Shown: in pieces, positions 35,806 through 53,116 of the stretch
Layout of the letters: each line of letters opens with the position of its first letter
Numbering within the stretch: position 1 is the stretch's first letter
Assembly: GCF_021215455.1 (NCBI RefSeq)
Contig: NZ_JAJPWV010000001.1
Span: 372,001-436,000, forward strand
Reading direction: 5' to 3'
Length of the DNA: 64,000 nt
Origin: Mucilaginibacter roseus
GTDB taxonomy: Bacteria > Bacteroidota > Bacteroidia > Sphingobacteriales > Sphingobacteriaceae
The notes under the pieces: model-generated
The model's database searches: none
Seen by the model: the letters and a program-made list of their open reading frames with translations, nothing else
Told to the model about the DNA's origin: nothing
Translations under genes and position numbers: made by a program

Positions 35806-36318
35806 ATGAAGACTGTTCGCTTAATCGCTAAGGTGCTATCTGCTATTAGTAAAATACTTGCAACAGGATATTTTCTATCCTTTCTGCTTTCTATTATCGC
35901 ATTCACTACAGGCTGGAATTTGAATGTGATCGAGCATAATACCCGTTTCGAGATCTGTTATCCGTTTACCCAAACACCCTTCCTTTTGGGCGAATACAGT
36001 GCAGGATACATGTTAATGTTCCTGTTATTGCTTGGGCTTTATTCACTTTTCTTTTTGCTGGTTGGGAGAGTATTTGGTGTGTTTACCCAAGCCAGGTTGT
36101 TTACAGCGCATGGTATTCGTCAGCTAAAAATGTTTTACCTGGGCAACCTGGTATTGCCTGTAGTGGCTATAGTGGTAGTCTCCTTGTTTTATAACGTTGA
36201 TTCACCGGCCGAAATATTGGTTGTACTACATATGTTGCTGGGCGTATTTACCTACTTCATGGCAGCCATTTTTAGAGAAGGGTACAATTTACAGTGCGAA
36301 AACGATTTGATTCTTTGA
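35806..36318 (+). CDS. DUF2975 membrane protein
   Basis: The 170-residue protein has four hydrophobic segments (about 18-38, 60-85, 105-130, 135-155) in the pattern of DUF2975, an integral membrane family almost always encoded with a small XRE regulator. Here the regulator follows after one base. Function is unknown; the pair is often next to ABC exporters, as here. Confidence 0.82.
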   Translation: MKTVRLIAKVLSAISKILATGYFLSFLLSIIAFTTGWNLNVIEHNTRFEICYPFTQTPFLLGEYSAGYMLMFLLLLGLYSLFFLLVGRVFGVFTQARLFTAHGIRQLKMFYLGNLVLPVVAIVVVSLFYNVDSPAEILVVLHMLLGVFTYFMAAIFREGYNLQCENDLIL

Positions 36319-36319
36319 T

Positions 36320-36526
36320 ATGGCCATTATTATAAATGTAGATGTAATGTTGGCCAGGCGAAAAATGCAAAGTAAAGAGCTGGCAGAAATCCTGGATATG
36401 ACTCCGGCTAACTTTTCCATCTTAAAAACCGGGAAGGCAAAAGGTATACGATTCGATACGCTCGAAGCGATATGTAAAGCCCTTGATTGCCAGCCTGGTG
36501 ATATACTCGAATATGTAACCGACTAA
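36320..36526 (+). CDS. Small XRE/YozG-type transcriptional regulator
   Basis: The 68-residue protein is a single Cro/CI HTH (MLARRKMQSKELAEILDMTPANFSILKTGKAKGIRFDTLEAICKALDCQPGDILEYV), matching the YozG-like regulators paired with DUF2975. Its start is one base past the DUF2975 stop. The palindrome at 35750-35778 is a natural candidate operator. Confidence 0.9.
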   Translation: MAIIINVDVMLARRKMQSKELAEILDMTPANFSILKTGKAKGIRFDTLEAICKALDCQPGDILEYVTD

Positions 36527-36607
36527 CAAGACGTAATTAAATTATATTACTATTTAACCCTTGGCAACGAAAGGGGAGGCCACCCTTTTGCCTGAAAAGT
36601 TCAGTCA

Positions 36608-37480
36608 ATGAATACACTTACCATTAACAACTTAAGTAAAGTTTATAAAAACGGCGTCAAGGCTTTAGATGAATTGTCGCTGGAGATCAGTAACGGAATG
36701 TTCGGTCTACTTGGGCCTAACGGCGCCGGAAAATCATCCCTTATGAAAATGCTTGCCGGTTTGCAGCATCCCGATGCCGGTGAAATATATTTCAACAATT
36801 GTAATGTAATCCGTAACCCCTTATCGTTAAAAAGGCAACTTGGCTTCTTGCCGCAGGATTTTGGGGTATATCCTAAAGTATCGGCCTATGACTTGCTTAA
36901 CCACATTGCTGTTTTAAAAGGTCTCACACACGCTGCTTCAAGAAAAGAACAGGTTTTGGCGTTGCTCGCTCAAACTAACCTTTACCAGCAGCGCGATAAA
37001 GAGGTGCATACGTTTTCAGGTGGCATGCGGCAGCGCTTCGGCGTAGCGCAGGCATTACTGGGTAACCCGCAACTAATTATAGTTGATGAACCAACAGCGG
37101 GCCTCGATCCCGAAGAACGCAACCGTTTTAATAACCTGCTTAGTGAAATAGGGGAAGAAAAGATCATCATATTGTCTACCCACCTGGTTGAAGATGTAAA
37201 AAACCTCTGTACCCACATGGCCGTCATGAACAAGGGTCGCATTATTGCCAAAGGCAAGCCTGCTGATTTTATAGCTTCCATGAACGGTAAACTATGGCAA
37301 AAAATGATTGATAAGACCGATAAGCCAGTTTATGAGCAACGGTTTCGCCTCCTTTCTGCTCAACTTAGTCTGGGTAAGCTTCAGGTCCATATTTACAGCG
37401 AGAGTGATCCTGGTTATGGCTTTGCCCCTGCGAGCCCAGCCTTAGAGGACGTTTATTTTTATCTACTAAACGCCAACTAA
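36608..37480 (+). CDS. ABC transporter ATP-binding protein
   Basis: The 290-residue ATPase shows Walker A GPNGAGKS (36-43), the Q-loop LPQDFG, signature FSGGMRQRF, Walker B plus D-loop LIIVDEPTAGLDP and the switch His in LSTHLVEDV. The tail is longer than in minimal exporter ATPases. It is followed after three bases by its permease. An imperfect hairpin (about 36563-36592, GGCA...AAAGGG/CCCTTT...TGCC) lies just upstream of the start in the mRNA leader. Cotranscription with DUF2975-XRE is possible. Confidence 0.92.
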   Translation: MNTLTINNLSKVYKNGVKALDELSLEISNGMFGLLGPNGAGKSSLMKMLAGLQHPDAGEIYFNNCNVIRNPLSLKRQLGFLPQDFGVYPKVSAYDLLNHIAVLKGLTHAASRKEQVLALLAQTNLYQQRDKEVHTFSGGMRQRFGVAQALLGNPQLIIVDEPTAGLDPEERNRFNNLLSEIGEEKIIILSTHLVEDVKNLCTHMAVMNKGRIIAKGKPADFIASMNGKLWQKMIDKTDKPVYEQRFRLLSAQLSLGKLQVHIYSESDPGYGFAPASPALEDVYFYLLNAN

Positions 37481-37483
37481 CTC

Positions 37484-40400
37484 ATGACCGCCTTACTGAA
37501 GTTCGAACTGGGCACTTACCTTAAGAAGCCCGGCATTTATATTGCCTTGTTGTTACTTTTTGCAGCTGGCTTTTTCATCGGCCTCAAAATGTCATTTAGT
37601 CCCGGTAACGAAATATATCGCAATGCACCATACAGTATTGCCAATATGGTCGGTTTGCTCAGCCTTAGCACTATTTTCATGACGACCGTATTTGCCGCTC
37701 AAATACTTTTAAAGGAACATGATGCCAAGTTCGATATCATACTGTACACGACACCCGTTAAAAAGGCGCACTATCTTTTTAGTCGCTTTGGGGCGTTATT
37801 TATGCTGACAACGATATGTTTTATAGTACTTGTAACTGGTTATTTAGCGGGCCATATCGCTGATAGCAACCCGGTGATCTACCGTGGGTTCAATCTATGG
37901 TTCTATATACAGCCGGTATTGTTCTTGGCACTGCCAAATCTAATAATGTGCGCTGCACTGGTAAGCACCATTACCTGGCTGTTTCCCAATAAACTTATGG
38001 TGTATGTCACCGGTTTGTTTATTTATATCTGTTACCTTATCATGCTCACCTATTCCGGATCGCCCATGATGGCCGGAAGTCTGCCCCAATCACCCGAAAT
38101 GCTGGAGCTTTCCGCGAAAACGGATCCCTTAGGTCTTTCCGCGTTTTATCAGCAGACCAATCTGTGGACAGTAGCACAGAAAAACACCTGCCTGATACAG
38201 TTGACGGGAAATCTCTTACTGAACCGGGTTGTCAGCATTGCAGTATCCTTCTTGCTGCTATCGGCCGCGTACTTTAAGTTCAGATTCCGTATATGGGAAA
38301 ATACTTCCGTCAAAAGCAAAGCTATTCAACTGTATGAACATAGCCCGGTATTAAAATACGGGCTTATACAGCCTTCGCCTCATGGGCTAATGTATAATTT
38401 ATCGGCAATTAAAAGCCTGGTAAAGCAAAACCTCAAAATCCTGATCAAAAGCATCCCATTCGTCCTCATCGGCTTTGGATTGATTTTTTATTTGGGTATG
38501 GAATTTTATGGGAGCATTGACCAGGGTGTACGGTTGCCGGAACAATATGCCAGTACCGCGCTGATGGTTAACCGGATAATCTATAACCTTCCTGGATTGT
38601 TGCTGTTGGTCGTTTTGTTTTATGCTCATGAACTTTACTGGCAAAGCTATAGTCATCGTTTTAACCTGATGGAGAATAGTACTCCGGTTAATAACAGCGT
38701 TCTTTTATTAGCAAAATGGATTTCGCTTACAGTGATGATCATTTTGTTGACCGGCATGATCATTACAACCGGCATTGTTTTTCAATTCATGTATCATTAC
38801 CCCGCCATCAATTGGCAGGCTTATGCGGTGGCTTATCTGTTTGTCGATCTTCCCTTAATGATCAGCGCTGCACTGATCTTACTACTCCAGCACATAATTA
38901 ACCATAAATGGCTGGGCTTAACCGGTACCTGTATAATTATGGGACTACTGGTAACCGCAATCGGTAAATCATTAGGAATAACGCAGCCCGTATTGCGCTT
39001 CGCCGGGGCCTACACAGCCCAATTTAGTGAAATGAATGGCTGGGATGACTATTCCAGAAGCTTTATATGGAGGATGGTCTATGGAGCCAGCTTTACCATT
39101 ACTGCATGGTTGATAGTTAATAATTATTTTAAAATGGCTACTAAAAGGCAGTTACTTTTTTTAAGTATTCCTTTTAGCATATGCCTCATTACGGGCATAT
39201 ATATATACGAACAAACACCTGCCGTCAGCACTATAAAGCAATTTGATAAGCGCCAAAGCTACGAGCAATTATATCGTAAGTATAAAGATGCCAACCAGCC
39301 TGTAATTACTAATGTTAAAACCAAGATTGATCTGTATCCGGGGCGTAACGCTTATCAGGTATGGGGTAGCTATTCCCTCGTCAACAAGGGCGCCAGGCCT
39401 ATTCATAAACTCCTCATCAATTTTGAGGAGGATATAAAAGTTAAGATGGCAACTTACCAGGCCGAAGGAAAAGAACAATCTTTGGATACGAAAACCGGCC
39501 TAATTGATATAAAGTATCCCTTGATGCCAGGAGACAGCGCCACGCTCACATTTTCCTTTGCTTATGAATGGAATGGATTCACGGGACACCAGCCTTTCAA
39601 CGCCATTGTACATAACGGCACATTTATCCGTATCAGCAACTACTTCCCTCGCTTCGGATATCAAACGGATAAAGAAATATCCTTACCGGGCGAAAGACAA
39701 AAAAGGCACCTGGGGGAATTATCAGTATTAAAAAGGCTTGAAGCACCGCGCGGCGTAAACCAGTTTATCAATCTGGATATGACCGTTTCGGTACCTTCTG
39801 AACAAACTGTAATCGGCGTAGGTGATCTTGCTCAACAATGGCGGTTAAACGATCGGAGTTACTTCAGGTATCTTTCCGGCATGCCGATACCTTTCAGGTT
39901 CGGGATTTCTGCGGCAAAGTATCAGGTCAAAAAGTTGAATTACAAAGGTGTTCAATTTGAAGTGTTTTATGATCGCAAGCACTTTGAAAATGTAACACAC
40001 CTGATCAGGAATGCTACCCGGACTATGGATTATTGCCAGGATAATTTTGGCCCATATCCCTATAAAACGATCCGGTTTGCAGAGGTATCTTCTTTTACAG
40101 ACGGATTTGCCGGCACCGCTTACCCGGCAACCATCTTCGTGACCGAGCAATTGCTTTTTCATAACAACCTTAAAGCAGACCGCGGTCAGGACGTAATCAA
40201 TGAACTTGCCGCCCATGAGCTATCTCATCAGTGGTGGGGTAACGGCCGATTGGCACCGGATGAACGTGAAGGATCGAAGGTATTAACCGAAACCCTGGCG
40301 ATGTATACCGAGTTGATGCTGGCAAAACGATACCTGGGCACGCAAGCGTTAAAGAAAAAATTAGCCATACATGAACATATATATCTGAATGAACGCGGAT

Positions 40401-40651
40401 TTTCCAAAGAATCTCCGCTGTACAAAGCAAGGCCGGAAGACACCTATCTTTATTATGATAAGGGATTGATCGTGATGTACCAGTTAAGTGAATTGATTGG
40501 TGAGGAGAAAACCAATAGGGCATTAAGGAACTTACTGGAAAAATATTCTTATCCAGCCCCGCCGCCTGTAACTACTGATCTGCTTAGGGAGTTGTATCAA
40601 GTCAGCGATGAAGCGCAGCATGTCAGGATCCGAAAACTGTTTACGCGTTAA
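37484..40651 (+). CDS. ABC-2 permease fused to M1-type aminopeptidase domain
   Basis: The 1055-residue protein has about twelve membrane helices in the first 590 residues, in two ABC-2-like blocks, and a C-terminal periplasmic-side M1-like peptidase part (about 610-1055). The zinc motif is HELSHQWWGN with His911, Glu912 and His915; the next Glu in the KVLTETLAMY helix is Glu936, a HExxH-x20-E spacing against x18 in classical M1 enzymes. The classical GAMEN exopeptidase motif is not visible; FAGTAYP stands in its place. Such fusions are recurrent in Bacteroidota. Export of, or action on, peptides is inferred. Confidence 0.88.
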   Translation: MTALLKFELGTYLKKPGIYIALLLLFAAGFFIGLKMSFSPGNEIYRNAPYSIANMVGLLSLSTIFMTTVFAAQILLKEHDAKFDIILYTTPVKKAHYLFSRFGALFMLTTICFIVLVTGYLAGHIADSNPVIYRGFNLWFYIQPVLFLALPNLIMCAALVSTITWLFPNKLMVYVTGLFIYICYLIMLTYSGSPMMAGSLPQSPEMLELSAKTDPLGLSAFYQQTNLWTVAQKNTCLIQLTGNLLLNRVVSIAVSFLLLSAAYFKFRFRIWENTSVKSKAIQLYEHSPVLKYGLIQPSPHGLMYNLSAIKSLVKQNLKILIKSIPFVLIGFGLIFYLGMEFYGSIDQGVRLPEQYASTALMVNRIIYNLPGLLLLVVLFYAHELYWQSYSHRFNLMENSTPVNNSVLLLAKWISLTVMIILLTGMIITTGIVFQFMYHYPAINWQAYAVAYLFVDLPLMISAALILLLQHIINHKWLGLTGTCIIMGLLVTAIGKSLGITQPVLRFAGAYTAQFSEMNGWDDYSRSFIWRMVYGASFTITAWLIVNNYFKMATKRQLLFLSIPFSICLITGIYIYEQTPAVSTIKQFDKRQSYEQLYRKYKDANQPVITNVKTKIDLYPGRNAYQVWGSYSLVNKGARPIHKLLINFEEDIKVKMATYQAEGKEQSLDTKTGLIDIKYPLMPGDSATLTFSFAYEWNGFTGHQPFNAIVHNGTFIRISNYFPRFGYQTDKEISLPGERQKRHLGELSVLKRLEAPRGVNQFINLDMTVSVPSEQTVIGVGDLAQQWRLNDRSYFRYLSGMPIPFRFGISAAKYQVKKLNYKGVQFEVFYDRKHFENVTHLIRNATRTMDYCQDNFGPYPYKTIRFAEVSSFTDGFAGTAYPATIFVTEQLLFHNNLKADRGQDVINELAAHELSHQWWGNGRLAPDEREGSKVLTETLAMYTELMLAKRYLGTQALKKKLAIHEHIYLNERGFSKESPLYKARPEDTYLYYDKGLIVMYQLSELIGEEKTNRALRNLLEKYSYPAPPPVTTDLLRELYQVSDEAQHVRIRKLFTR

Positions 40652-40784
40652 TACAAGAATTAATATTTATTATGGATTATTGGGAAGATTTTCATAAACT
40701 TTAGATCTGATTACCTGAAATTGATGGCGTCTTTAAAGTTAATTAGTAAGATAAATAAGTTAACAAAACATCTGACACTTTTAC

Positions 40785-41450
40785 ATGAGAATAGTTCTTA
40801 AATCCATATACATCTTTAGTCTGATGTTGTTACCCTGTTCATTACTTGGGCAAAATGGACAAACCATCAAAATTGCCGATCTGTACAAGAAAGCAAGGCT
40901 TAGGGCCGTGAACAGAGACATTGCAAACGTTCAAAGCAACGATGGAACTTACCTGAATGTTTCGGAAAGTAAAAAAGAAGGTATTGTATGGCTTCCGTTC
41001 AAGGACTTTCAAAATGGCACAATTGAGGTTGAAATGCGGGGAAAGGATGTTTTTCAAAGGAGTTTTATTGGTATTGCGTTCCACGGCCAGGATGACATTA
41101 CGTACGATGCGGTATATTGTCGTCCCTTTAATTTTTTTTCGGCCGATTCTGTTAGGAGGATACACGCAGTGCAATATATCTCGCAACCCGATTTTACCTG
41201 GGAAAGATTGAGAAAGGAAAAAAACGCGATGTTTGAAAAAGAGATCGTCGATCCACCAGATCCCAATGGCTGGTTTACCTTGAAACTCGTGGTTGACAAC
41301 GGTACTGTTAAAGCGTATATCAACAACGCAGCTGAAGCTTCGCTGGTTGTTCAAAAACTCAATGATCGAACTTGGGGTAAAATAGGAGTCTTTACAGCAG
41401 ATAGTAGTGGCGGCGACTTTAAAACAATCAAAGTAAACTATAGTAATTAA
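40785..41450 (+). CDS. Secreted LamG/DUF1080-like protein
   Basis: The 221-residue protein has a signal peptide (ending CSLLGQN) and one concanavalin-like beta-sandwich: FKDFQNGTIEVEMRGKDVFQRSFIGIAFHGQD, YDAVYCRPFNF, GWFTLKLVVDNGTVKAYINNAAEASLVV, GKIGVFTADSSGGDFKTIKV. This matches DUF1080/LamG-type domains that often bind or cut carbohydrates. No catalytic residues are identified. It stands alone, before the long gene-poor stretch that opens the island. Confidence 0.75.
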   Translation: MRIVLKSIYIFSLMLLPCSLLGQNGQTIKIADLYKKARLRAVNRDIANVQSNDGTYLNVSESKKEGIVWLPFKDFQNGTIEVEMRGKDVFQRSFIGIAFHGQDDITYDAVYCRPFNFFSADSVRRIHAVQYISQPDFTWERLRKEKNAMFEKEIVDPPDPNGWFTLKLVVDNGTVKAYINNAAEASLVVQKLNDRTWGKIGVFTADSSGGDFKTIKVNYSN

Positions 41451-41654
41451 AGAAAACTATAATAATAATAAAGTTTCGACTCTCATCTAAATCTATTACA
41501 GTTCATCCATTGAATTTTACCGCTATTATACACAATAAAGTGACCCGCAAGCTCTGTTGAAAGAAACCATCCGTGGGAGGGCTTCCATCAGCATGCCGGG
41601 TATCCGCTACGTGCAGAACTCTTTAACATTGTAAAAAGCATTAGGATATAATAT

Positions 41655-41696
41655 GAATAGTGGCAGTTTTTAAACTACAAAAAACTGCCACTATTC
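41655..41696. repeat. 17-bp perfect inverted repeat (terminator-like)
   Basis: Arms GAATAGTGGCAGTTTTT (41655-41671) and AAAAACTGCCACTATTC (41680-41696) with an 8-base loop. It may be a bidirectional terminator for the gene ending at 41450 or the footprint of a small element. Confidence 0.7.
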
Positions 41697-41900
41697 TGCC
41701 ATAAAAAATTTGAGCGCTTTTGAAAGATTTGTGAATTTATATAACCCAAAACTTATTAAAAATCGCCAATTATCAAAGATTTATCCTTCTATAGATAAAT
41801 ATAAGTGCAATTTTTGGAAAAGACGGATGCGAACCCTCGAGCCCCGTACTGTAATTTTAAGGCCTTAATTATCAGTGTGTTACAAGATTTATAATTGCAT

Positions 41901-41931
41901 AAAAAAACCGAACTTTAGGTTCGGTTTTTTT
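41901..41931. terminator. Bidirectional terminator beside tRNA remnant
   Basis: Arms AAAAAAACCGAAC and GTTCGGTTTTTTT (13 bp, 5-base loop). On the minus strand it would directly follow the 3' end of a tRNA whose acceptor sequence survives at 41935-41948, the normal place for a tRNA terminator. Confidence 0.85.
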
Positions 41932-41934
41932 TAG

Positions 41935-41948
41935 TGGAGCCGGAGGGA
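41935..41948 (-). other. tRNA 3'-end fragment, candidate att site
   Basis: TGGAGCCGGAGGGA on the plus strand is the reverse complement of a tRNA acceptor/T-stem end (TCCCTCCGGCTCCA). The homology stops abruptly at about 41949, where AT-rich island DNA begins, and the adjacent terminator is on the correct side. This is the usual scar of integration into the 3' end of a tRNA gene. An intact partner copy is not in the window. Confidence 0.5.
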
Positions 41949-42401
41949 GTTTTTTTAAACACTCTATTGGCTGTATATCAACTACTTATATTTGTGTAGT
42001 CTTTATGGGTCTCGAATAGGTCTCTCAGTTTGAAAGGGTTTAAAAACGCTATGTAGTTCGTTTAAAGGTAACTAATTGCTCATTAAAATCAAAGCAATAT
42101 TAGTTAACTATATGAATGTAGTGAATGAATATAGGTGTACCTGTGGGAAAATAGATAGAAAGAGCCATATCCTGATCTCAAATACAGTTATTACCGGACG
42201 CATGAACTAAGTTATGATTTTAAATAAATCGCCGCTACGCAAATACGCTGCGCATTATGTGTTTTATTCTATTTAGTAATGGCACGTTATTTTAAATAAG
42301 GCCAAAAAGCTAAATTAGTAGAATATATTCAGGAGTGCCTGATTTATTCGGTATTTACCAATAGACAGTTGAGCACTGAAGAAAAAAAAACCTTGATCAC
42401 A

Positions 42402-44999
42402 ATGGCAAATCAATCCACCCCACCAGTAAAACGCAAAAAGAAGTTCAGTTGGGCAGCATTTACCGAAGACTTTAGCATTTCAAGTGGCATTTGGTTGCTT
42501 GGACTTTTAATTGTTTTTGTGCTATTCTCAAGGGCATTCATACAGTTATGGGACTTGGTCATTACCAATCCATTTTTAAAGTATTGTACAACTGACAACC
42601 TGCTAACTGACTGGATCTTTTTATTTTATCTGCTTTTCTGCATTGGCTACTTTGTCTGGCATATTTGGCGGGGTTTGTACATTTCCTTAAACTCACTCGC
42701 ATTTACACTGGTCTTTATCTTTCTATATTTCTTCTTGATACGCAATGCCGATATTAACAATTTCTATTTTTTCAAACTTGGCTTCCTGACAGGCATTCCC
42801 TACGCCAATTTTTTTATCATCGGAACGCCTTTGTTGATCAGTACTTACAAATCTTACTTTGAGGGTTTGGTGATCCAGCCAACCCAAATGTCCCTGATCG
42901 ACGACAATTCATCGCTGTCGAGTTATACTGATGCCTATTCAAGAGCAGGTTATGCAACATCTGTCGCTAAACATATCATGGAGACCTCAACAACAAATTC
43001 GTTTGCGATCGCAGTTGTAGGTGAATGGGGTTCGGGCAAAACAGATTTCCTGATGCGATTAAAAAGCGAGTTAGAAAAAGACACCGCCAATAATTTGGTC
43101 TTTGACTTCAATCCCTGGCGAGCAAGTAAACCTGATGGCATAATCGACGAATTCTTCAAAACATTGTCCAACGAGCTGAAACCTTATAACCGATCGATTC
43201 ATGCTAAGCTTAAAGATTATTCCAAACGGATCTTGCAAACCGGTAAAGAGATTTATTTCCGGTTCTTCGACACATTGATCAACGATTTTGGTGGGGATGA
43301 CAGTATTCAAACGCAATATAAAGAAATCAATAAAGCGATCAGCGGATTGTCCCGGCGCGTGGTGATCTTTATAGATGATATGGACCGCCTGACAGGCAAG
43401 GAGGTTATGGAAGTGTTAAGGATCATCCGCAATACTGCAAATTTTTCCAACACATTCTTTGTGGCGAGCATCGACCAGAACTATGTGATCAATGTACTAA
43501 AAGGCACAAAAGACTTCGCAAATGAAGAAGAATACTTAAAGAAGGTGTTTCAGTTGGTCATTACATTACCTGCTTTCAAAAAGAACATATTTATTCAGCT
43601 GCTTAAAGACCAGCTTTTGACAGATGATGTCGAGCATACACATAAAAAATTAATCACTGATGCCGTTTCTAAGATCACAACTGACTTCGGCGACTTGAGT
43701 GTCCCTTTCTACCCAGCGGCAGATCATGATAATATCCTCGAAAAACTCGTAGAAAATACAAGGGACCTGAAACGCTTTAGCAACTCGTTCAAACTTGCTT
43801 TCAATGCTTTAAAAGATGAAATTGATGTGCACGACCTGATGGTGCTCGAACTGATCAGAAACCGAAATATTGAAGTCTATAACAGGATTAGAAACCGGTA
43901 TTTTTTGGATTTTGACGTGGATAGCAGTGACGAATTTTTGCTAAATGAGAAAAACTGGGAGCAATTCGAGAAAGATAACAAAGAGGCGCTCGGCCAAGAT
44001 GAGCTTAAAAAGCTTAAATCAGCAATCAACTATTTGGTCACTGACATGGGCTATAAGAACCGACGGAAATTTAAGGAGGTGCATAATTTTTATCTATATT
44101 TTTCCTATCAACTCTTCAACCTCGTATCTCTCAAAGCATTCAATGAAATTTTGGAAAAACATCACCCGGATATTACAAAGCAATTTGATGAATGGGGCAA
44201 GGAAGGTAAAGGCCAGGAACTGATACATATCGCTTCACGTGCGGTCGACTTTAAAGACAGTGATACCCTGTTAAAGATGATCACTGCTTATTTGAATATC
44301 AAGGCTGATCACGATGTCTGGCTTGAATTGGCGATGAAGCTATTGGTTAATTTTAGCAACTACAATCTCAATAAATATTTCGGCGATGACGAATCCAAAT
44401 ACAAGCAGTTTTTAAATGAACTAATGGACAATAAGGCAATTGCGCTTGTTGACCGCTCTGCGATAGGTAGTCGTTTTCTGGATTCACATTTCAATGACAC
44501 TGGTGAAAACCGGGTGTTAAATAAGGAATTTTGGCAGGGCAAAATATATGCCCTACTAAAAGAATTCTTAACTATTACTAATAGGCCCACATCCTATAGG
44601 CAAATGATGAACTTGTATTATTGGAATAAATTTGAGCTTGATCAGGAACGTCACATCACTATTAAAAAAGAAGCATCATCAGATTTCAAAGAATACCTAT
44701 TAAATAATGCCGAAGCATTTGAATTGTATGTGCGGCACATGTTAAGGCCGTATTATTCCCCTTATAGTAAAGGTGGTCTGATCGTATTTGAACCATTCCT
44801 GGAACAGATATTCGGAAGCTGGCACGATTTCAAAGCTCATTTAGAAAAACAAAATTTTAATGATCCGGATACCCAGAAGATCCAGCGCATCATATTGTCG
44901 CGCATTGACAAATATTTCAATGAGCAAAAAAGTTTTAAAATAACAGATAAAGCGGATGAGCAATTGATGCTCGATATGCTTGCAAAATTAAGCGCATGA
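42402..44999 (+). CDS. KAP-family P-loop NTPase with membrane helices
   Basis: The ATG at 42402 is preferred over an upstream TTG at 42369; this gives 865 residues. About four hydrophobic helices (29-50, 71-90, 97-115, 135-150) precede the KAP NTPase core: Walker A VVGEWGSGKTDF (207-214), the family FNPWRAS phrase (236-242) and Walker B VVIFIDDMDRL (320-330), followed by ASIDQNYVINVL. A long helical C-terminus of over 450 residues has no recognised motif. KAP proteins include the phage-exclusion protein PifA of plasmid F. The last four bases overlap the AbiV gene (ATGA), so the two are translationally coupled. Confidence 0.88.
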   Translation: MANQSTPPVKRKKKFSWAAFTEDFSISSGIWLLGLLIVFVLFSRAFIQLWDLVITNPFLKYCTTDNLLTDWIFLFYLLFCIGYFVWHIWRGLYISLNSLAFTLVFIFLYFFLIRNADINNFYFFKLGFLTGIPYANFFIIGTPLLISTYKSYFEGLVIQPTQMSLIDDNSSLSSYTDAYSRAGYATSVAKHIMETSTTNSFAIAVVGEWGSGKTDFLMRLKSELEKDTANNLVFDFNPWRASKPDGIIDEFFKTLSNELKPYNRSIHAKLKDYSKRILQTGKEIYFRFFDTLINDFGGDDSIQTQYKEINKAISGLSRRVVIFIDDMDRLTGKEVMEVLRIIRNTANFSNTFFVASIDQNYVINVLKGTKDFANEEEYLKKVFQLVITLPAFKKNIFIQLLKDQLLTDDVEHTHKKLITDAVSKITTDFGDLSVPFYPAADHDNILEKLVENTRDLKRFSNSFKLAFNALKDEIDVHDLMVLELIRNRNIEVYNRIRNRYFLDFDVDSSDEFLLNEKNWEQFEKDNKEALGQDELKKLKSAINYLVTDMGYKNRRKFKEVHNFYLYFSYQLFNLVSLKAFNEILEKHHPDITKQFDEWGKEGKGQELIHIASRAVDFKDSDTLLKMITAYLNIKADHDVWLELAMKLLVNFSNYNLNKYFGDDESKYKQFLNELMDNKAIALVDRSAIGSRFLDSHFNDTGENRVLNKEFWQGKIYALLKEFLTITNRPTSYRQMMNLYYWNKFELDQERHITIKKEASSDFKEYLLNNAEAFELYVRHMLRPYYSPYSKGGLIVFEPFLEQIFGSWHDFKAHLEKQNFNDPDTQKIQRIILSRIDKYFNEQKSFKITDKADEQLMLDMLAKLSA

Positions 45000-45715
45000 A
45001 CCTGACGAAAACCGAGATATTAAGCCTTTATAATGCTACGATTGATAATGCTCACGAATTGCTTAAGGCTGCGCATCATAATGTTTTCAACTATGATGGC
45101 AAAAAATTCATTGGATTGGGTATCTCAGAACTTGCCTTGGAGGAGTTGGGTAAATCTTTCACTTTATTAGCGTACTACTCCAAAGCCCAGACGATCAACG
45201 ATTGGAAACAGTTTTGGAAAGACTGGCGAAATCATGACGTCAAAGCGGCACGCGGTTTTTTTTACGAATTCTTCTGCACCATCAGGATGGAGATTGAAAA
45301 CCCAAATGAACCTATCTTAAACGAGCCGATCCCGCGTGGCAGATTCTCTACAGAAAAAGAATTGGCGTTTTACGTGGATATTGATAAAAGTTCGAGAAAG
45401 ATACATCTGCCGGAACAGCATGTTAGTGATGAAGAGGCGATCAACCGTGTCGTTTCTTTGTATGGATTGTTGAATCCGGCTTTATTTATTAAAGACTGGT
45501 TAAACTCGCTAGAGCCGGACGGGTATAAAGACGCGATGTCGGATTATGCCTATGTTGCATTGACCGAAGATGTTTATCAACAGGATGTCCCGTCAATTTT
45601 AAGTGCTTTACGGAATGGCAATCCTGACCGTGATCGTGCGTTGGACGAAATATGGAAGATGTGTGATCGAAAATTTAATGACGAAGACACTACCGAAGAA
45701 CAATTAACCAGTTAG
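44996..45715 (+). CDS. AbiV-family abortive infection protein
   Basis: The 239-residue protein shows the AbiV signature: a first helix NATIDNAHELLKAAHHNVF, then KKFIGLGISELALEELGKSFTLLAYY with the EELGK box at 49-53. AbiV of Lactococcus is an abortive-infection protein blocking phage late translation; the fold is related to HEPN-type helical domains, many of which are RNases. The rest is helical and acidic at the end. It overlaps the KAP NTPase gene by four bases and has no other neighbour on its transcript, so the two are a likely sensor/effector pair. That pairing as a defence system is inference. Confidence 0.75.
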   Translation: MNLTKTEILSLYNATIDNAHELLKAAHHNVFNYDGKKFIGLGISELALEELGKSFTLLAYYSKAQTINDWKQFWKDWRNHDVKAARGFFYEFFCTIRMEIENPNEPILNEPIPRGRFSTEKELAFYVDIDKSSRKIHLPEQHVSDEEAINRVVSLYGLLNPALFIKDWLNSLEPDGYKDAMSDYAYVALTEDVYQQDVPSILSALRNGNPDRDRALDEIWKMCDRKFNDEDTTEEQLTS

Positions 45716-45842
45716 TTTAATATATCAGCGCTTAGTCAAGGGATTAATGCTTAAGGCTCCCCAAGTTTTTTTGCTGCGCCTGCGGTCTGACCGCATGGCA
45801 CAATTTCGTACATTTATAAGTCGGCATTGCCGACACTTTAGC

Positions 45843-46239
45843 ATGAGCAAGATATCGCAGATCAAACAAGAAATCTATGGCATTGAGGGTGGGGCATTCC
45901 AAGAAGTTTGCAACCGTTATTTCGTCAGGACCTATGGTAGTGAATTGCATAGTACTGGTTCCGTCGGTGATAAAACGAAAACCAAGCCTGGAAGGCCGGA
46001 TAGTTATTTAGTGCAGGAAGACGGGACTTATGTGCTGGCTGAGCACGACCCATGATAATTTGAGTAATCCAAATTTTCGAGAGATGCTGATCAGTGATCT
46101 ACAAGGGTGTTTGAAATTTGAGAAATTGGGTATTACTGCTAACCAGGTACGTTGTATTGTTTTGTGTTGTGATAGTTCGATAGATATAGATGTGCGGCAG
46201 GAGTTTTCTAAATTCTTTATTTATTTTATAATCAATTAG
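45843..46239 (+). pseudogene. Frameshifted, truncated large defence-type gene
   Basis: Two overlapping frames make one protein start. Frame one from ATG 45843 reads MSKISQIKQEIYGIEGGAF, then CNRYFVRTYGSELHSTGSVGDK and GRPDSYLVQEDGTYVLAE, then fails. Frame two resumes at about 46045 with TTHDNLSNPNFREMLISDL up to 46239. Two missing bases near 46043 explain it. This opening is typical of large multi-domain proteins with an N-terminal nuclease-like domain found in defence islands, with hundreds of further residues that are absent here. The gene is dead by frameshift and 3' loss. Confidence 0.7.
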
Positions 46240-46606
46240 TTAAATATAGTATGTCATTTAAGGTCTCTGATCAGATTCAATTCTAACGAGGAAGCAATGG
46301 CATACTATGAAGAAGAATGGATTGTGATTACTGAACTACTCGAAATCTTCGAGTAGTTGAACTTTATAATGAATTTGGGTTTGAGTCACCCGTTTTATCG
46401 AAAGCATTATTAGACCAAACTGTTCCATTCTCCTAAAAGTAATAATTGGAACATCCTGACAATGTTAAAATAACAATTACCTGTAAATATTTAGAAAAAT
46501 TGCATCCAATTATAGCGTTAGTACTTTGCATGTCAACTCAAGGATGGGTGAATTTGCATCAATTCATTACGACCGATTCATGTCTCACTGCTTTCTGGGC
46601 ATTCAT
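46240..46606. other. Decayed stretch with 10-bp inverted repeat
   Basis: No intact gene in about 370 bases. A short frame from ATG 46297 (MAYYEEEWIVITELLEIFE, then stop) may be a relic. A perfect inverted repeat AACTACTCGA-AATCT-TCGAGTAGTT lies at 46334-46358, inside that relic, with no T run after it. Confidence 0.4.
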
Positions 46607-47242
46607 TTATTTAGCCTTAGTAAAAGCCATCTTAAACGCCAAAGCAGCTAGCACACTCGCCATAAACCATTTTTGGATCTTGACCCATGCCGGTTGTTGA
46701 TTAAAAAACGACGCGGCTCGGGCAGCAGTTAATACAATTATAAAATTTATGCTTAAGCTGACGATCACCTGGGTTATGCCCAACTGAATACTCTGCATCA
46801 TTATGGAGCCGGACGCAGTTTTGATGAACTGTGGAAATAAGGATAAATAGAACATCGCCACTTTCGGATTAAGCACGTTCGTTAAAAAACCAATGGCGAA
46901 TAGCTTTCGCGGATTGTCGGAATTTAGATTGCGGTCAGTCTCAAAAATGTTTTTGCTATTGGGTTTGATAGCTTGGTAAGCAAGGTACAACAGGTAGATA
47001 ACACCGGCAGTTTTTAGGGTTAAGTAAGCAAAAGGTACTGCAAACAGGACCGCCGTCAAACCAAATGAAACTAAAATAATATGGACTAGAAATCCGCAAA
47101 TCACACCCAATAGCGAGGTGAGCCCGGCTTTTCGTCCCTGTGAAAGCGTTCGAGAGATCAAATAGATCATATTCGGCCCCGGAGTGATCACAAGGACAAG
47201 GGCGGCTAAAGCAAATATTGTAAGATCGTAAAATTGTATCAT
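46607..47242 (-). CDS. LysE/RhtB-family amino-acid exporter
   Basis: The start at 47242 (MIQFYDLTIFALAALVLVITPGPNMIYLISRTLSQGRKAG) gives the normal family length of 211 residues; the open frame extends 74 codons further upstream but that part lacks family character. Six hydrophobic segments and the signature ITPGPNMIYLISRTLSQGRKAGL define LysE/RhtB exporters of amino acids or homoserine lactones. It is the only minus-strand gene in the island. An imperfect palindrome (47299-47325) lies about 57 bases upstream. Confidence 0.9.
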   Translation of the reverse strand: MIQFYDLTIFALAALVLVITPGPNMIYLISRTLSQGRKAGLTSLLGVICGFLVHIILVSFGLTAVLFAVPFAYLTLKTAGVIYLLYLAYQAIKPNSKNIFETDRNLNSDNPRKLFAIGFLTNVLNPKVAMFYLSLFPQFIKTASGSIMMQSIQLGITQVIVSLSINFIIVLTAARAASFFNQQPAWVKIQKWFMASVLAALAFKMAFTKAK

Positions 47243-47508
47243 GTTCTTTTTCTGGAAAGTTTTGAAAGGCCCTGTTAAACTAAAATATATTCCGGAGCAA
47301 TATCCCACGCACTGCGTAGGATATTTTATTTCTAATATACAAGATTTATTATTGGCGCTCTTTACAGAATTGATAAAGTGCTGTGACCTTCTTAACGCAC
47401 ATGATTGGCATGGCGTCAGATAATGTAGTTTCTTCCCTGTTCCACCATTGCATTTCCAGAACATCCTACCACAGGCATCATAATTTGTAAGGAAGTTAAT
47501 AACCCGTC

Positions 47509-47673
47509 GTGGAATTTACTTTACCGCTTAACAATGAACAAATATTCGCTAAAGAATATAAGCTTTACCTGCCAAGTAAAGAAGATTTAAAGAAACAACT
47601 TGAATATCATGAAGGTCATACTTTGAGGTTCCAATTCGAAACCTCAAAGTATAACACATTTTTTAAATACTAA
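47509..47673 (+). pseudogene. C-terminal fragment of a DUF1016/YhcG PDDEXK nuclease
   Basis: A 54-codon frame with a GTG start or none (TAA two codons before) reads VEFTLPLNNEQIFAKEYKLY, then LPSKEDLKKQLEYHE. This is the usual last part of YhcG/DUF1016-type PDDEXK nuclease proteins (xYxL-LPSKEDL-xxxLE). The catalytic region is missing, so this is a remnant cut by insertion or deletion just before the mobilizable element. Confidence 0.55.
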
Positions 47674-47705
47674 AAAGGGTCAGCTTTGACCCTTTTGTTT
47701 TTTAT
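47673..47705 (+). terminator. Intrinsic terminator after the nuclease fragment
   Basis: Arms AAAAGGGTCA (47673-47682) and TGACCCTTTT (47687-47696) with a 4-base loop and following GTTTTTTAT form a standard terminator directly behind the fragment's stop codon. Confidence 0.85.
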
Positions 47706-47824
47706 AGCTCATTTTGATTTAATCCGATCTATAAAACGGTAAAAAGCACCCCTCCAATTGCCAACCTTGTGTTTTTATGATCTTTTGCTTAACTAATTTT
47801 GAAGTCCATTTAAAATAAAAGGTT

Positions 47825-48148
47825 ATGGATAAAGCATTTGAACAACGAACTAAAGCTCCCGGATCGGTGCCTACACGGAACCAGATACTCACTATCGGCG
47901 ACATGGAAGACTTCAAAAACGACGTACTTCAGGAACTCAAACAGATTATCAAGGATTACATAAGCGGTGCGCCTGGCAAGAAATGGCTGAAGTCAGCCGA
48001 AGTTAAAAAGCTGCTGGGGATATCTCATGGTTTCCTACAATCATTGCGTGATAGCGGTGTGCTTCCGTTCACCAAAATTGGTGGCTCGATTTATTATGAT
48101 TATGAGGACATCACCTTCATGATGACAACCAATAAAAGTGTTTCCTAA
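47825..48148 (+). CDS. HTH-17/excisionase-like DNA-binding protein
   Basis: The 107-residue protein has a Gln/Lys-rich N-terminal half and a C-terminal winged-helix of the MerR/excisionase (HTH_17) type: KKWLKSAEVKKLLGISHGFLQSLRDSGVLPFTKIGGSIYYDYEDITFMM. Such proteins are the first gene of many Bacteroidota mobilizable elements and may act as excision or replication regulators. It precedes the conserved small gene and parA. Confidence 0.82.
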   Translation: MDKAFEQRTKAPGSVPTRNQILTIGDMEDFKNDVLQELKQIIKDYISGAPGKKWLKSAEVKKLLGISHGFLQSLRDSGVLPFTKIGGSIYYDYEDITFMMTTNKSVS

Positions 48149-48192
48149 TCGCTTACCGCCGTGCCAAGACGGCACGGCATATCCCTAAATGT

Positions 48193-48504
48193 ATGATAAC
48201 CAAACGAAAGGTAAAACGTATCGCTGTAGAACGCAAATCTATATCCATGCCGGAGGCGATAACGCAAAAAGGTTTCGGCAATGAGCTGCCGCCTCGTGAA
48301 TCTCTGGTCGAAATATATTTTGATCAGAAAGGTCTGACTGCACAAGCTAAAGCTTTTTATGAATTTTACAGCAAGGCTAACTGGTGCAGTCCCAAAGGCA
48401 CACCTTATCGAAACTGGAAATTGCTGGCCAGCGATTGGATATTCAATTATGTGCAGGAATTGAAGCTCAGAAAGCGCCAGCGCGAAAATATGCTAGCTAA
48501 CTAG
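48193..48504 (+). CDS. Conserved small protein of mobilizable elements
   Basis: The 103-residue protein is basic at both ends (MITKRKVKRIAVERKS; LRKRQRENM) with LVEIYFDQKGLTAQAKAFYEFYSKANWCSPKGTPYRNWKLLASDWIFNY in the middle. I recall similar proteins just upstream of parA in Bacteroidota mobilizable elements but know no function. The two Trp/Cys landmarks NWCSPKGTPYRNWK look like a conserved core. It sits 34 bases before parA. Confidence 0.65.
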   Translation: MITKRKVKRIAVERKSISMPEAITQKGFGNELPPRESLVEIYFDQKGLTAQAKAFYEFYSKANWCSPKGTPYRNWKLLASDWIFNYVQELKLRKRQRENMLAN

Positions 48505-48538
48505 CAACCTATCATTCTATCAAACTAACAATTTTATT

Positions 48539-49129
48539 ATGGCAAAGATCATCACTCTGGCCCACCAAAAAGGTGGTGTCGGAAAAAGCACATTGGCTAT
48601 AAACCTGGCACTGACGTTTCAGGATCAATTATCTGTCGCGCTTGTAGATACAGATTTGCAGGGCAGTTTATACCATCTCAGGGAAGACTTTCCTAATTTA
48701 ACCATCATTGGTTCAGATCAATTAAAAGACACTCAGCGATTAGACTATGACTTGATTATCGTTGATACGCCGCCTTATCTGTCCAATCGTTTACCGGAGT
48801 TGTTTCGGCGTTCCGATTTTATACTTGTGCCGACAAAGGCAGGCTTTTTTGACGTCATGGCAATTCGGTCTACGCTGGCACTGATCGAGGAAGCGAAAGG
48901 TAAAGCCGGAATCGTGCTAAATATGGTCAAGCCAAGATCAGGGCTAACCAATGACGTGAGCAACCTTCTTCAAAATATGGGTACCCCACTATTAAAAAGT
49001 CGTGTGCATGACCGGGTGAGTATCGCACGGTCATCTATAACCGGTGGCATCCTCAACAGCGGCGACTCCAAGGCCAAAGCCGAGTTGATGGCGCTTGCGG
49101 AAGAAATCGTTGAACGGCTAGCAAACTAG
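48539..49129 (+). CDS. parA: ParA-family partition ATPase
   Basis: The 196-residue protein has the deviant Walker A KGGVGKST (14-21 region, ITLAHQKGGVGKSTLAINLAL), the Asp of VDTDLQGSL, and LIIVDTPPYLSNRLPELFRRSDFILVPTKAGFFDV. It is a short ParA of the plasmid/ICE type with no N-terminal HTH. Direct and inverted repeats follow its stop, and the next gene is a small ParB-like candidate, so a complete partition cassette is likely. That suggests the element replicates or is held as a circle at some stage. Confidence 0.92.
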   Translation: MAKIITLAHQKGGVGKSTLAINLALTFQDQLSVALVDTDLQGSLYHLREDFPNLTIIGSDQLKDTQRLDYDLIIVDTPPYLSNRLPELFRRSDFILVPTKAGFFDVMAIRSTLALIEEAKGKAGIVLNMVKPRSGLTNDVSNLLQNMGTPLLKSRVHDRVSIARSSITGGILNSGDSKAKAELMALAEEIVERLAN

Positions 49130-49237
49130 CTTTTTATTTACCTAACAAGATAGCAAAATCGCATGCTATCAAGCTATCAAACGATGATAGCATACTAGCA
49201 TGATAGTCGACATTGCTAACAAACTAGCATGATAGCA
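49117..49237. repeat. parS-like iteron cluster
   Basis: Between parA and the next gene, GATAGC or its complement occurs at 49149, 49165 (inverted), 49173 (inverted), 49186 and 49231. A 13-base direct repeat ACTAGCATGATAG occurs at 49194-49206 and 49223-49235. GCTAGCAAACTAGC ends the parA gene itself. The last copy abuts the start of the downstream gene at 49240. Related CTAGC motifs lie just before parA (48492-48504). Layout fits a centromere or autoregulatory operator. Confidence 0.7.
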
Positions 49238-49239
49238 AA

Positions 49240-49494
49240 ATGGAAGATTATAAAAAGAGGCTAGGCGGCCTGGCGGATAAACTCAAAAAGGAGCCGCCTA
49301 AAACGCCGGTGCAGGAAGTTCAATCGGTAAAGCAGGCTACTCCGAAAGAGCCCGAGGTGCAGTTCAATAACCGCATCCCAAAGGCACTTTTGAAACTGGT
49401 AAAAGCGTACGGCCTGGAACACGAAGTGTCGCTACAGGACATTAACATCCAAGCACTGGAGTTCTATCTAAAGAATTATAATAAGGACAAGTAA
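49240..49494 (+). CDS. Small ParB-like/RHH partition partner
   Basis: The 84-residue protein has a charged, Pro-rich N-terminus and a C-terminal part VQFNNRIPKALLKLVKAYGLEHEVSLQDINIQALEFYLKNY with a strand-helix-helix rhythm like ribbon-helix-helix proteins. Downstream of parA and the repeat cluster, it is a good candidate for the centromere-binding partner. No family was recognised. Confidence 0.6.
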   Translation: MEDYKKRLGGLADKLKKEPPKTPVQEVQSVKQATPKEPEVQFNNRIPKALLKLVKAYGLEHEVSLQDINIQALEFYLKNYNKDK

Positions 49495-49501
49495 ACTGAT
49501 A

Positions 49502-49638
49502 GCAGCAGGCTTAGACTGCCCGCTTCGCCGCAGTCAGCAAGATGTACGTTTGTAATACAAACGGATCTTGCCCCTGCCTCCGAAGTCGGCCGCGGTTCGG
49601 GCAAAAGCCTCCGAAGTCGGCTTTTTAAAGACAGGAAA
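49502..49638 (+). other. Candidate oriT (transfer origin)
   Basis: Just upstream of mobC lie two hairpins and a direct repeat: GACTGC/GCAGTC (49514-49519, 49530-49535); a long stem with arms GCAAGAT..CGTTTGTA and TACAAACG.ATCTTGC (49537-49571); and two copies of GCCTCCGAAGTCGGC (49576-49590, 49607-49621). Inverted repeats beside a relaxase operon are the hallmark of oriT. The nick site is not identified. Confidence 0.55.
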
Positions 49639-50049
49639 ATGGGAACAGCAGAAGATAAATTAACACGGGTTTTGCTGACAAGATTCAAGCAGGCGGAATA
49701 CGACCTGATCAACAACAGGTTTAAGAAAACGCGCTTCCGCAAGTTGAGCGAGTACGTTCGCAGTGTCATGCTCGGAAAACCTGTCACTGTATTGTACAGG
49801 GATAAATCTATGGATGATCTTCTGGAAGAAATGGTCAACCTGCGCCAAGAATTAAGTGCTATCGGGAACAACCTTAACCAGGCCATGCGCAGCATAAACA
49901 GTACGCATGGTCATGCCGATGCCAAGCTTTGGATGAATTTATTAAGTGTAGTCAACGGTAAACTGGAACCTGCTATCATACAGATCAGGGACCGGATGAA
50001 TAATTATGCAGAGGTATGGTCGCAAAAATTAAAAGCGGTAAAAGCTTGA
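49639..50049 (+). CDS. MobC-like mobilization (relaxosome) protein
   Basis: The 136-residue protein has an RHH-like N-terminus (TRVLLTRFKQAEYDLINNRFKKTRFRKLSEYVRSVMLGKPV) followed by the MobC motif LRQELSAIGNNLNQAMRSIN. MobC proteins help the relaxase open the DNA at oriT. It overlaps the relaxase gene by 34 bases and directly follows the candidate oriT. Confidence 0.87.
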   Translation: MGTAEDKLTRVLLTRFKQAEYDLINNRFKKTRFRKLSEYVRSVMLGKPVTVLYRDKSMDDLLEEMVNLRQELSAIGNNLNQAMRSINSTHGHADAKLWMNLLSVVNGKLEPAIIQIRDRMNNYAEVWSQKLKAVKA

Positions 50050-51227
50050 TCGGCGCGCTCAATTATAATGAGCGGAAGGTAAGCCACGGTAAGGCAAAAC
50101 TAATTGCGGCTGTTCGTTACTCAAAGGATATGGATAAGCTGTACTTTCATGACAAGCTATTAAGACTGACCGACCTGGCAGCAAGGAACGAGCGAACGAA
50201 GACGAACACCGTACATATCTCTTTAAATTTTCCGAACGGTGAGCGATTGCCTGACGACAGGCTGCAACATATCACGCAGGACTATATGAACGGTATCGGC
50301 TTTGATGGACAACCGTACCTCGTCTATCGCCACGAGGATGCCGGACATCCGCATATTCATATTGTAACTACTAACATCAAACCCGATGGTGAGCGGATCA
50401 GCTTGCATTACCTGGGACAAAACCAATCGGAGAAAGTACGTAAGGAAATCGAGATCAGATACCAACTCATCAAGGCCGAGGGTCAACAGCGCCAAAAGCC
50501 TGATCTGAAAGCCGAGATCATGGCAGCAGATTACGGTCAGGCAGAAACCAAACGCAGCATCACCAACATTTTGAGTTATGTTGTCCGTACTTATAAGTTT
50601 ACCAGTGTCCCCGAATTGAATGCCGTGTTGCAACAATACAGGATCGCCGCTGATCAAGGCAGCAAAGATAGCCGCATGTATGCCCAGGCTGGCCTGATCT
50701 ATTGGATGCTGGATGATAAAGGTGATAAGATCGGTGTACCAATCAAAGCAAGCAGCATTTACGGCAAACCGACACTTAAGGCACTGGAGGAACGCTTTAA
50801 GTTGAACGCCACACTGAGGAAGCCATTTAAAGAGAATCTAATCAAAGTACTTGATGAGGCACTGAAGCAACCGCTGACTGCACCGCAACTTCAACAATTA
50901 TTATCAGAAAAGGGTATCCATATCATCCTGCGCCGAAATGACGAGGGTCGGCTTTATGGGGTCACCTTCATTGATAGAAATAACAAGGCCGTATTCAATG
51001 GCAGCGATCTTGGCAAAGCATATAGTGCCAATCAATTGGCCACTATCCTCTTACCGGAACCGAAACAACACAAGCAAACACAGATTGATGACTGGTCACC
51101 AACGGCAACCGATTACAACAAAAACACCGGAAATGATGTGTTGGATGCGCTACTTGAAGTCGAGCAACAAGACCTCGCCGCGCTCAACAAATTCAAGAAA
51201 AAGAAACGTAAAGGACTAAATCTATAA
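50016..51227 (+). CDS. Relaxase/mobilization nuclease
   Basis: The 403-residue protein belongs to the PF03432 relaxase family. The N-terminus has KSGKSLIGALNYNERK and the metal-binding triad HEDAGHPHIHIVTTNI (histidines at about 107, 112, 114 and 116 in the RHEDAGHPHIHIV block). The catalytic Tyr candidate lies in the ALNYNERK segment near residue 18. The C-terminal half is helical. It nicks oriT and leads the strand into the recipient. Its mRNA overlaps mobC. Confidence 0.92.
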   Translation: MVAKIKSGKSLIGALNYNERKVSHGKAKLIAAVRYSKDMDKLYFHDKLLRLTDLAARNERTKTNTVHISLNFPNGERLPDDRLQHITQDYMNGIGFDGQPYLVYRHEDAGHPHIHIVTTNIKPDGERISLHYLGQNQSEKVRKEIEIRYQLIKAEGQQRQKPDLKAEIMAADYGQAETKRSITNILSYVVRTYKFTSVPELNAVLQQYRIAADQGSKDSRMYAQAGLIYWMLDDKGDKIGVPIKASSIYGKPTLKALEERFKLNATLRKPFKENLIKVLDEALKQPLTAPQLQQLLSEKGIHIILRRNDEGRLYGVTFIDRNNKAVFNGSDLGKAYSANQLATILLPEPKQHKQTQIDDWSPTATDYNKNTGNDVLDALLEVEQQDLAALNKFKKKKRKGLNL

Positions 51228-51229
51228 GT

Positions 51230-53116
51230 ATGCAAACCGGAGAAAACGAACAGGCCTTGCGTAAGATCATTGATTTTACCAGGCTGCTAAGCATCACCAT
51301 ATTGGTCATTCACTTTTATTTGGCCTGTTATAGCGCCTTCAGAGATTTAAAATTGACTCACCGGATCACTGATCAGGTTTTATTGCCCCTGACCCGGATG
51401 CCCATATTTACGACGATGCTAGTCGCTAAGATTAGTTCGATGTTGCTATTAATCGTATCATTAATTGGAAGCAAGGGTAAACGGGACGAGAAGATCAGGC
51501 CCAAAACAATTGCAACTTACTGCGTCACCGGTCTGCTCATTTACTTTTTGAGTAGCTATCTAATCACTTGGCCATGGCTTTATATTGGCGCTACCGCGTT
51601 TGGCTATTTATTATTTATGACGGGTGGCAGTTTACTTTTCCGCATGCTCAAACTCAATTTAGGCGCAGACATTTTCAATAAAGACAACGAAACGTTCCCG
51701 CAGGAAGAACGGCTATTGCAGAATGAATATTCGATCAACCTACCAGCGAAGTATCAATTAAAGGGTAAAGAACGCAACAGTTGGATCAATATCATCAACC
51801 CATTCCGCGGAACGCTTGTCGGTGGTAGCCCCGGCGCTGGTAAGTCGTACTTTGTAATTCGACACATTATTACCCAGCACATTGAAAAGGGTTTTGCAAT
51901 GCTGATCTATGATTTTAAATATGATGATCTTTCAAAAATAGCTTACAACGCACTGAGAAAACATGGTGGCCGCTCGTTTTTTGTCATCAATTTCGAAAAA
52001 ATCATGCACCGCAGTAACCCGCTCGAACCGGAAACTATGCTGGATATTACCGATGCTATGGAAGCTGCTCGTACCATTATGTTAAGTTTAAATCGCGAGT
52101 GGATCAAAAAGCAAGGTGACTTTTTTGTGGAATCGCCCATCAACTTCGTGACGGCATTGATTTGGTTTCTTAGAAAATATGAAAATGGTCGGTATTGTAC
52201 TTTGCCGCATGTAATTGAATTATCCTTAGTCGATTACAATGAACTATTTACACTGCTAAGCAGTGAACCTGAAATAGAGGTGCTTATTAATCCTTTCATT
52301 TCGGCTTGGCGAAATGAAGCGTATGAGCAGTTAGAGGGACAAATTGCTAGTGCCAAAATTAGCCTGGCCAGGCTGTCCTCACCGCAGTTATACTATGTTT
52401 TAAACGGAAACGATTTTTCGTTGGACATCAATAATCCAGACGATCCTAAAATCGTATGCCTGGCCAATAATCCGCAGAAGTCACAAACTTACGGTGCCGT
52501 ATTGTCTTTGTATGTAAACCGGATTAACAAGTTGGTCAACCGTAAACATCAGCAAAAGTGCAGCCTGATCTTTGATGAGTTTCCAACTATCTACTTCAAT
52601 GGGATAGACAATCTTATCGCTACCGCGCGTTCTAACAAGGTTGCAGTCACCTTGGCAGTGCAGGATCATAGCCAGCTTAAAAAGGATTATGGCCGGGAAC
52701 AGGCGGAAGTGATTATGAACATCGTGGGTAATATCATATGCGGACAGGTCACGGGCGATACGGCTAAACAACTGTCAGAACGTTTTGGCAAAATCAACCA
52801 GCAAAAGGAAAGTGTTTCCATTAACAACACAGACACATCGGTCAGCCGTTCGACTCAATTAGATTACGCCATTCCGGCGTCAAAGATCGCTGGCCTATCA
52901 TCAGGTGAGTTTGTAGGCATGATAGCGGATGACCCGACCTGTAAGATCGGGCTGAAAACTTTTCATTGCGAGATCCAAAATGATCACGACGCTATCGGGC
53001 GCGAAGAGTCTGCTTATTCTCCTATTCCCCCGGTGCGTACAATTTCACAATCAGAAATACTAAACAATTATCATAGAATCAAAGCAGACATTAAGATCAT
53101 TACAGATGAAAGTTAG
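51230..53116 (+). CDS. Type IV coupling protein (TraG/VirD4-like)
   Basis: The 628-residue protein has about four membrane helices before residue 140, then Walker A VGGSPGAGKSYFVIRH (198-206) and Walker B CSLIFDEFPTIYF (about 443-455), with QDHSQLKKDYG and GNIICGQVTGDTAKQLSERFG of the motor core. It links the relaxosome to a conjugation channel. No channel genes (TraA-TraQ or VirB) are present, so a helper element must provide one. It begins two bases after the relaxase stop. Confidence 0.9.
   Translation: MQTGENEQALRKIIDFTRLLSITILVIHFYLACYSAFRDLKLTHRITDQVLLPLTRMPIFTTMLVAKISSMLLLIVSLIGSKGKRDEKIRPKTIATYCVTGLLIYFLSSYLITWPWLYIGATAFGYLLFMTGGSLLFRMLKLNLGADIFNKDNETFPQEERLLQNEYSINLPAKYQLKGKERNSWINIINPFRGTLVGGSPGAGKSYFVIRHIITQHIEKGFAMLIYDFKYDDLSKIAYNALRKHGGRSFFVINFEKIMHRSNPLEPETMLDITDAMEAARTIMLSLNREWIKKQGDFFVESPINFVTALIWFLRKYENGRYCTLPHVIELSLVDYNELFTLLSSEPEIEVLINPFISAWRNEAYEQLEGQIASAKISLARLSSPQLYYVLNGNDFSLDINNPDDPKIVCLANNPQKSQTYGAVLSLYVNRINKLVNRKHQQKCSLIFDEFPTIYFNGIDNLIATARSNKVAVTLAVQDHSQLKKDYGREQAEVIMNIVGNIICGQVTGDTAKQLSERFGKINQQKESVSINNTDTSVSRSTQLDYAIPASKIAGLSSGEFVGMIADDPTCKIGLKTFHCEIQNDHDAIGREESAYSPIPPVRTISQSEILNNYHRIKADIKIITDES

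Follow-up and report, generated by a model that had tools for sequence, protein, structure and literature searches.

An overlapping KAP ATPase and AbiV-type gene pair in Mucilaginibacter roseus as a possible two-gene abortive-infection operon

KAP ATPases are, to our knowledge, tied to phage exclusion without a clear known output, and we know of no trigger for an AbiV-type HEPN protein outside Lactococcus. Here we analyse two overlapping genes, one from each family, within a 64,000-nucleotide stretch of the Mucilaginibacter roseus genome (NCBI RefSeq assembly GCF_021215455.1, contig NZ_JAJPWV010000001.1, positions 372,001 to 436,000 of the forward strand); this whole stretch is called the window and supplies the numbering used below. 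The nearest described counterparts are AbiV of Lactococcus lactis, the KAP protein PifA of the F plasmid, the RADAR system, likewise made up of two genes, whose products are an ATPase and a protein presumed to target RNA, and, more distantly, QatABCD. The L. lactis AbiV is described as acting through a phage protein, and it interacts with SaV, a protein of the phage. The HEPN_AbiV family is described as being without the canonical Rx4-6H motif and having an alternative conserved histidine instead (PMC3710099).

We propose that the KAP and AbiV genes are a rare, young, co-mobile two-gene abortive-infection operon, an ATPase sensor with an AbiV ribonuclease (RNase), and put the probability of this at roughly 40%. 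The sequence-only reading that first drew attention to the pair knew of no described system joining the two families. That still stands: among the matches listed from the literature on KAP, AbiV/HEPN, RdrA and PifA, in which subscription journals are mostly uncovered, no description of such a pair was found. Similarly, no paper was found among the matches listed on the partner in the L. lactis two-component system, which is known from a Protein Data Bank (PDB) title alone.

The gene pair and its two proteins

The KAP-family P-loop ATPase gene occupies 42402-44999 of the plus strand (865 amino acids, stop included in the coordinates), and the AbiV-family HEPN gene follows at 44996-45715 on the same strand (239 amino acids, likewise with its stop). 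The ATGA at 44996-44999 both ends the first gene and starts the second, giving a 4-base overlap. A mechanical open reading frame (ORF) call starts the KAP gene at a TTG at 42369 (876 amino acids); the ATG at 42402 was chosen because the homologue in G071, another genome of the genus, has 864 amino acids, with the alignment starting at residue 5. This layout and both family names, as first proposed, were confirmed by the sequence and by profile scores above the cut-offs: 136.2 bits for Pfam KAP_NTPase (PF07693; cut-off 20, E 1.9e-39), 50.5 bits for Pfam HEPN_AbiV (PF18728; cut-off 27.1, E 3.2e-13) and 54.8 for NCBIfam TIGR04498 (AbiV_defense; cut-off 27, E 1.3e-14). The G+C content is 38.8% in the KAP gene and 41.5% in the AbiV gene, against 44.5% for window positions 1-40700. 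The two genes likely form one operon. A fused form was sought and rejected, with PF18728 among the listed domains in 0 of 114 KAP matches.

The ATPase domain of the KAP protein covers residues 181-464 (42942-43793). Its Walker residues are intact: in the Walker A GEWGSGKT (residues 207-214; 43020-43043) W209, G210, G212 and K213, and in the Walker B-like VVIFIDD (residues 320-326; 43359-43379) D325 and D326, are invariant across 41 aligned sequences including that of the window. N-terminal to this domain lies a hydrophobic stretch (residues 24-152; 42471-42857) with three strong segments and one weaker by hydropathy, and helices at residues 26-41, 67-89, 96-114 and 134-146 in the model; it is predicted to anchor the protein in the membrane. 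KAP family NTPases are described as having membrane segments inserted within the P-loop domain; in the window protein the hydrophobic segments precede a continuous KAP domain match. This feature does not discriminate for the family, because PifA of the F plasmid itself shows none. The C-terminal region (residues 465-865; 43794-44996), mostly helical in the secondary structure of the model, is possibly a sensing or partner-binding part.

With PifA the window KAP has the ATPase domain in common, and the PADLOC PifA model matches it at 3.6e-46, with its best stretch at 164-391 of 720. The alignment with PifA, however, extends over residues 177-494 only, at 22% identity, and not over the PifA length; the F-plasmid protein, taken as PifA by its position beside pifC, has 741 amino acids and no predicted membrane segment. 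The nearest solved fold to the KAP core is RdrA of RADAR, and the core does have an RdrA-like fold, which offers a concrete structural model for the KAP group of the window. The locus differs from RADAR in the predicted membrane anchor of its ATPase and in its partner, which is a HEPN protein where RADAR has the RdrB deaminase; no match to an adjacent deaminase of that kind was found in the scanned proteins around the pair. To QatA the window KAP is a distant KAP-type ATPase match, scoring 39.6 bits against an equivalog cut-off of 600.

The AbiV protein retains the invariant residues of its family, and it matches the solved Lactococcus AbiV (PDB 9bj5, 9bj6, 9bj7) in profile, in HEPN fold and in the EE.GK and RNH..K stretches, at 17-18% identity over the aligned fold. 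It is longer (239 amino acids against 201) and, unlike its Lactococcus counterpart, has a KAP gene overlapping it upstream. Its HEPN_AbiV domain spans residues 8-152 (45017-45451). E49, His80 and Y126 are invariant across a diverse set of 19 AbiV sequences that includes the window's. Alignment A3 excludes loci L085 and L088-L091. The canonical Rx4-6H motif was not found in the window AbiV protein sequence, which, with its invariant His80, fits the family description. His80 (codon 45233-45235), which aligns with the L. lactis RNH..K, is a candidate catalytic histidine, and AbiV is predicted to be an RNase that would arrest translation. One AbiV relative, P0002, is 85% identical.

Recurrence, rarity and competing readings

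The AbiV query matched 3 of 199 relatives: the genome itself, G082 and G071. In G071 a KAP gene of 70% identity at the protein level ends in an ATGA overlap identical to that of the window. The AbiV gene there is broken by an in-frame stop, with homology ending near codon 97, and the KAP frame is still open. When window positions 38001-56000 were compared with 18 kb of G071, the DNA likeness was a single block, window 42466-45279, and the protein-level matches were only KAP, AbiV and shadow ORFs inside them, with unrelated flanks. As the overlap is kept at 70% KAP identity, and the match is limited to this pair without extending into the flanks, it is more than chance; as the matches are confined to both genes, the cassette appears, on sequence comparison, to have moved jointly between unrelated surroundings. 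The nonsynonymous divergence (dN) is 0.207 for KAP and 0.146 for the AbiV remnant, and the synonymous divergence (dS) was not computable (-1), which we took as saturation. A further KAP protein, P0040, is 99.3% identical to that of G071. Other KAP relatives, P0041-P0060, stand at 40-50% identity. The recurrence which the sequence-only reading had made its check was therefore found in one further genome, but with AbiV broken there, so that the idea is neither refuted nor raised to a conserved system; the model of a sensor with a toxin, put forward in that reading, may hold. The G071 pair offers a natural comparison for the intact one.

In the proposed operon the KAP ATPase would likely assemble at the membrane and sense infection, and would then switch on AbiV, perhaps by direct contact between the two proteins; AbiV would cut RNA, so that translation stops and the infected cell is halted. 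Co-transcription and translational coupling may link the production of both proteins, and the role of the pair would be phage defence. A natural KAP-AbiV operon would leave AbiV triggering and KAP output both open to test at once.

A reading of nearly equal standing is that two independent defence genes are stacked here, with KAP working alone in the manner of PifA, and AbiV alone arresting translation once it has bound a trigger from the phage, as the interaction of L. lactis AbiV with SaV would suggest. Several results favour such independence or weigh against our proposal. Relatives of KAP and of AbiV viewed in context are nearly all without the other gene: searched with two KAP profiles, the fetched stretches of 22 further, distinct loci with an AbiV match gave no KAP at all, and the AbiV profile matched just one of 20 other KAP loci, namely the G071 remnant. 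(The 22 are L004-L008, L076-L091 and L094, L093 being the same locus as L005 and counted once; L090 and L091 lie below the Pfam cut-off, L091 is unconfirmed by the AbiV profile, and just 743 bases precede AbiV in L086. The 20 are L033-L051 and L092, the weakest four of 24 KAP places, G067, G027, G119 and G070, having been left out.) In G071 the KAP frame is open where AbiV is broken, so KAP can persist without AbiV. At 14 of 19 other KAP loci (G071 counted, as the AbiV remnant falls below the length listed) there is no same-strand ORF of at least 90 amino acids within 200 bp downstream. Two plasmids with AbiV genes, one from L. brevis and the other from E. faecalis, show no annotated KAP in the stretches covered, with an incomplete gene table, and none is mentioned in the accessible part of the description of lactococcal AbiV. 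The likeness of the window KAP to RdrA is one of fold only, at 14-18% identity in seven rows; no RdrA sequence match was found by the KAP profile among PDB chains to E 1, and the RdrA model is absent from the PADLOC matches of the window KAP up to E 1. Part of this likeness is the common AAA+ core, because the weakest RdrA row (13.6) scores about the same as origin-recognition ATPases (13.3).

Against stacking, the identical 4-base overlap and apparent joint movement, between different flanks in two lineages, suggest some benefit of co-expression. Because the overlap is conserved and the two genes appear to have moved together, we slightly prefer the functional unit.

The overlap could also belong to a toxin-antitoxin-like module, in which KAP restrains AbiV and AbiV kills when KAP is disturbed. 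A HEPN protein could plausibly act as the toxin, and G071, where KAP survives and AbiV is broken, would fit a toxin that was lost first. Yet open AbiV genes stand without KAP in L004-L008, so that AbiV is not generally dependent on KAP, and an 865-amino-acid ATPase would be an unusual antitoxin; we consider this arrangement highly improbable.

How rare the pairing is was further examined by two censuses, alongside one genome-contig scan of five loci, and on these a widespread conserved KAP-AbiV system was rejected. Across 395 genomes of the class there are 17 HEPN_AbiV places in 14 genomes, 12 with a match above the cut-off, and a KAP match is listed beside AbiV at one of the 17, the window's own; this count rests on at most five KAP candidates scored per genome, the weakest matches not being among those listed, and a direct search of the other 16 places with the KAP profiles found no KAP. 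In the family, with 399 genomes searched, five match the AbiV profile, though the match in G042 is weak (E 1.6e-5), while four have KAP relatives at E <= 1e-60; both genes occur in two, M. roseus itself and G071. An origin of the pair from phages or plasmids was also rejected. No AbiV relatives were found in viral contigs, phage records or plasmids, and no KAP relatives in viral contigs or phage records; the KAP matches in 1001 plasmid records are distant and partial, all below 60% identity and none covering 80% of the query.

Other partners of KAP ATPases

Same-strand ORFs of at least 90 amino acids do lie within 200 bp downstream of KAP at five of the 19 other KAP loci. A YhcG PDDEXK nuclease gene begins 3 bp after KAP in L035 (4498-8724). 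Schlafen AlbA_2 genes follow by 136 bp in L039 and by 173 bp in L041, where the two KAPs are 97% identical and only the L039 gene was scanned. L046 has a second KAP-type ATPase gene 21 bp downstream, and L050 a 191-amino-acid protein without a match 58 bp downstream. These partners are the basis for a speculative, and in our view unlikely, generalisation: that N-terminally membrane-anchored KAP ATPases form an immune hub with a RADAR-type core and RNA- or DNA-cutting effectors (AbiV, YhcG, Schlafen-type) swapped by strain; as a basis, five loci counted without a chance control are weak.

Other genes are found close to single members of the pair. Directly upstream of KAP in L044 (2421-8102) lie a TIR/SEFIR gene and an unmatched 556-amino-acid gene, on the same strand. 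A DUF4145 gene lies 6 bp after AbiV in M. conchicola (L004:4996-6399), and another lies upstream of KAP in L050 (4874-8765) with one gene in between.

Neighbourhood of the pair

Closest to the pair lie a gene with a sub-threshold match to a sugar hydrolase, one for a LysE exporter, and a mobilisation/integrase module. The module (47825-54212) encodes a helix-turn-helix protein, ParA, MobC, a MobA-type relaxase, a coupling protein with a YWFCY domain and a tyrosine integrase; beyond it a complete-looking type I restriction-modification set (54608-61703) comprises two tandem HsdM genes, HsdS and HsdR, the HsdM genes carrying a 260-base direct repeat, 70% alike. The neighbours had been described at first as decayed or active defence genes. 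The restriction set, about 9 kb away, agrees with the active part, but the nearest genes are not clear defence genes and a decayed one could not be shown, because neither Pfam nor PADLOC gave a match, up to E 1, for the 102-amino-acid ORF 3' of AbiV (45747-46055). This ORF may represent the first part of a longer gene that has been broken.

The lack of clear defence genes immediately beside the pair would suit an operon with another membrane or RNA-control role. Both families, however, are tied to phage resistance, AbiV by its literature and PifA-type KAP by the PADLOC model, and genes for mobilisation, an integrase and type I restriction are found close to the locus; we regard a role outside phage defence as improbable.

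The repeat search over 40600-63000 gave no clear attachment site, and no tRNA genes were found in the window. The Bacteroidota promoter consensus occurs at three sites in the window against 4.19 expected by chance, none of them near the operon. A 19-base inverted repeat, 95% complementary, AT-rich and possibly due to chance, has one arm just upstream of KAP (42209-42227) and the other beyond the restriction genes (62714-62732), and so encloses the pair, the mobilisation module and the restriction set. On the upstream side of the pair, an ABC-transporter/peptidase block (35806-40651) recurs in Pedobacter sp. MC2016-15 (L005:2077-6966) beside a KAP-less AbiV, on its other side, where it adjoins a gene which, named from its sequence, reads like a serine recombinase. 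The sites of this block are possibly a shared insertion hotspot.
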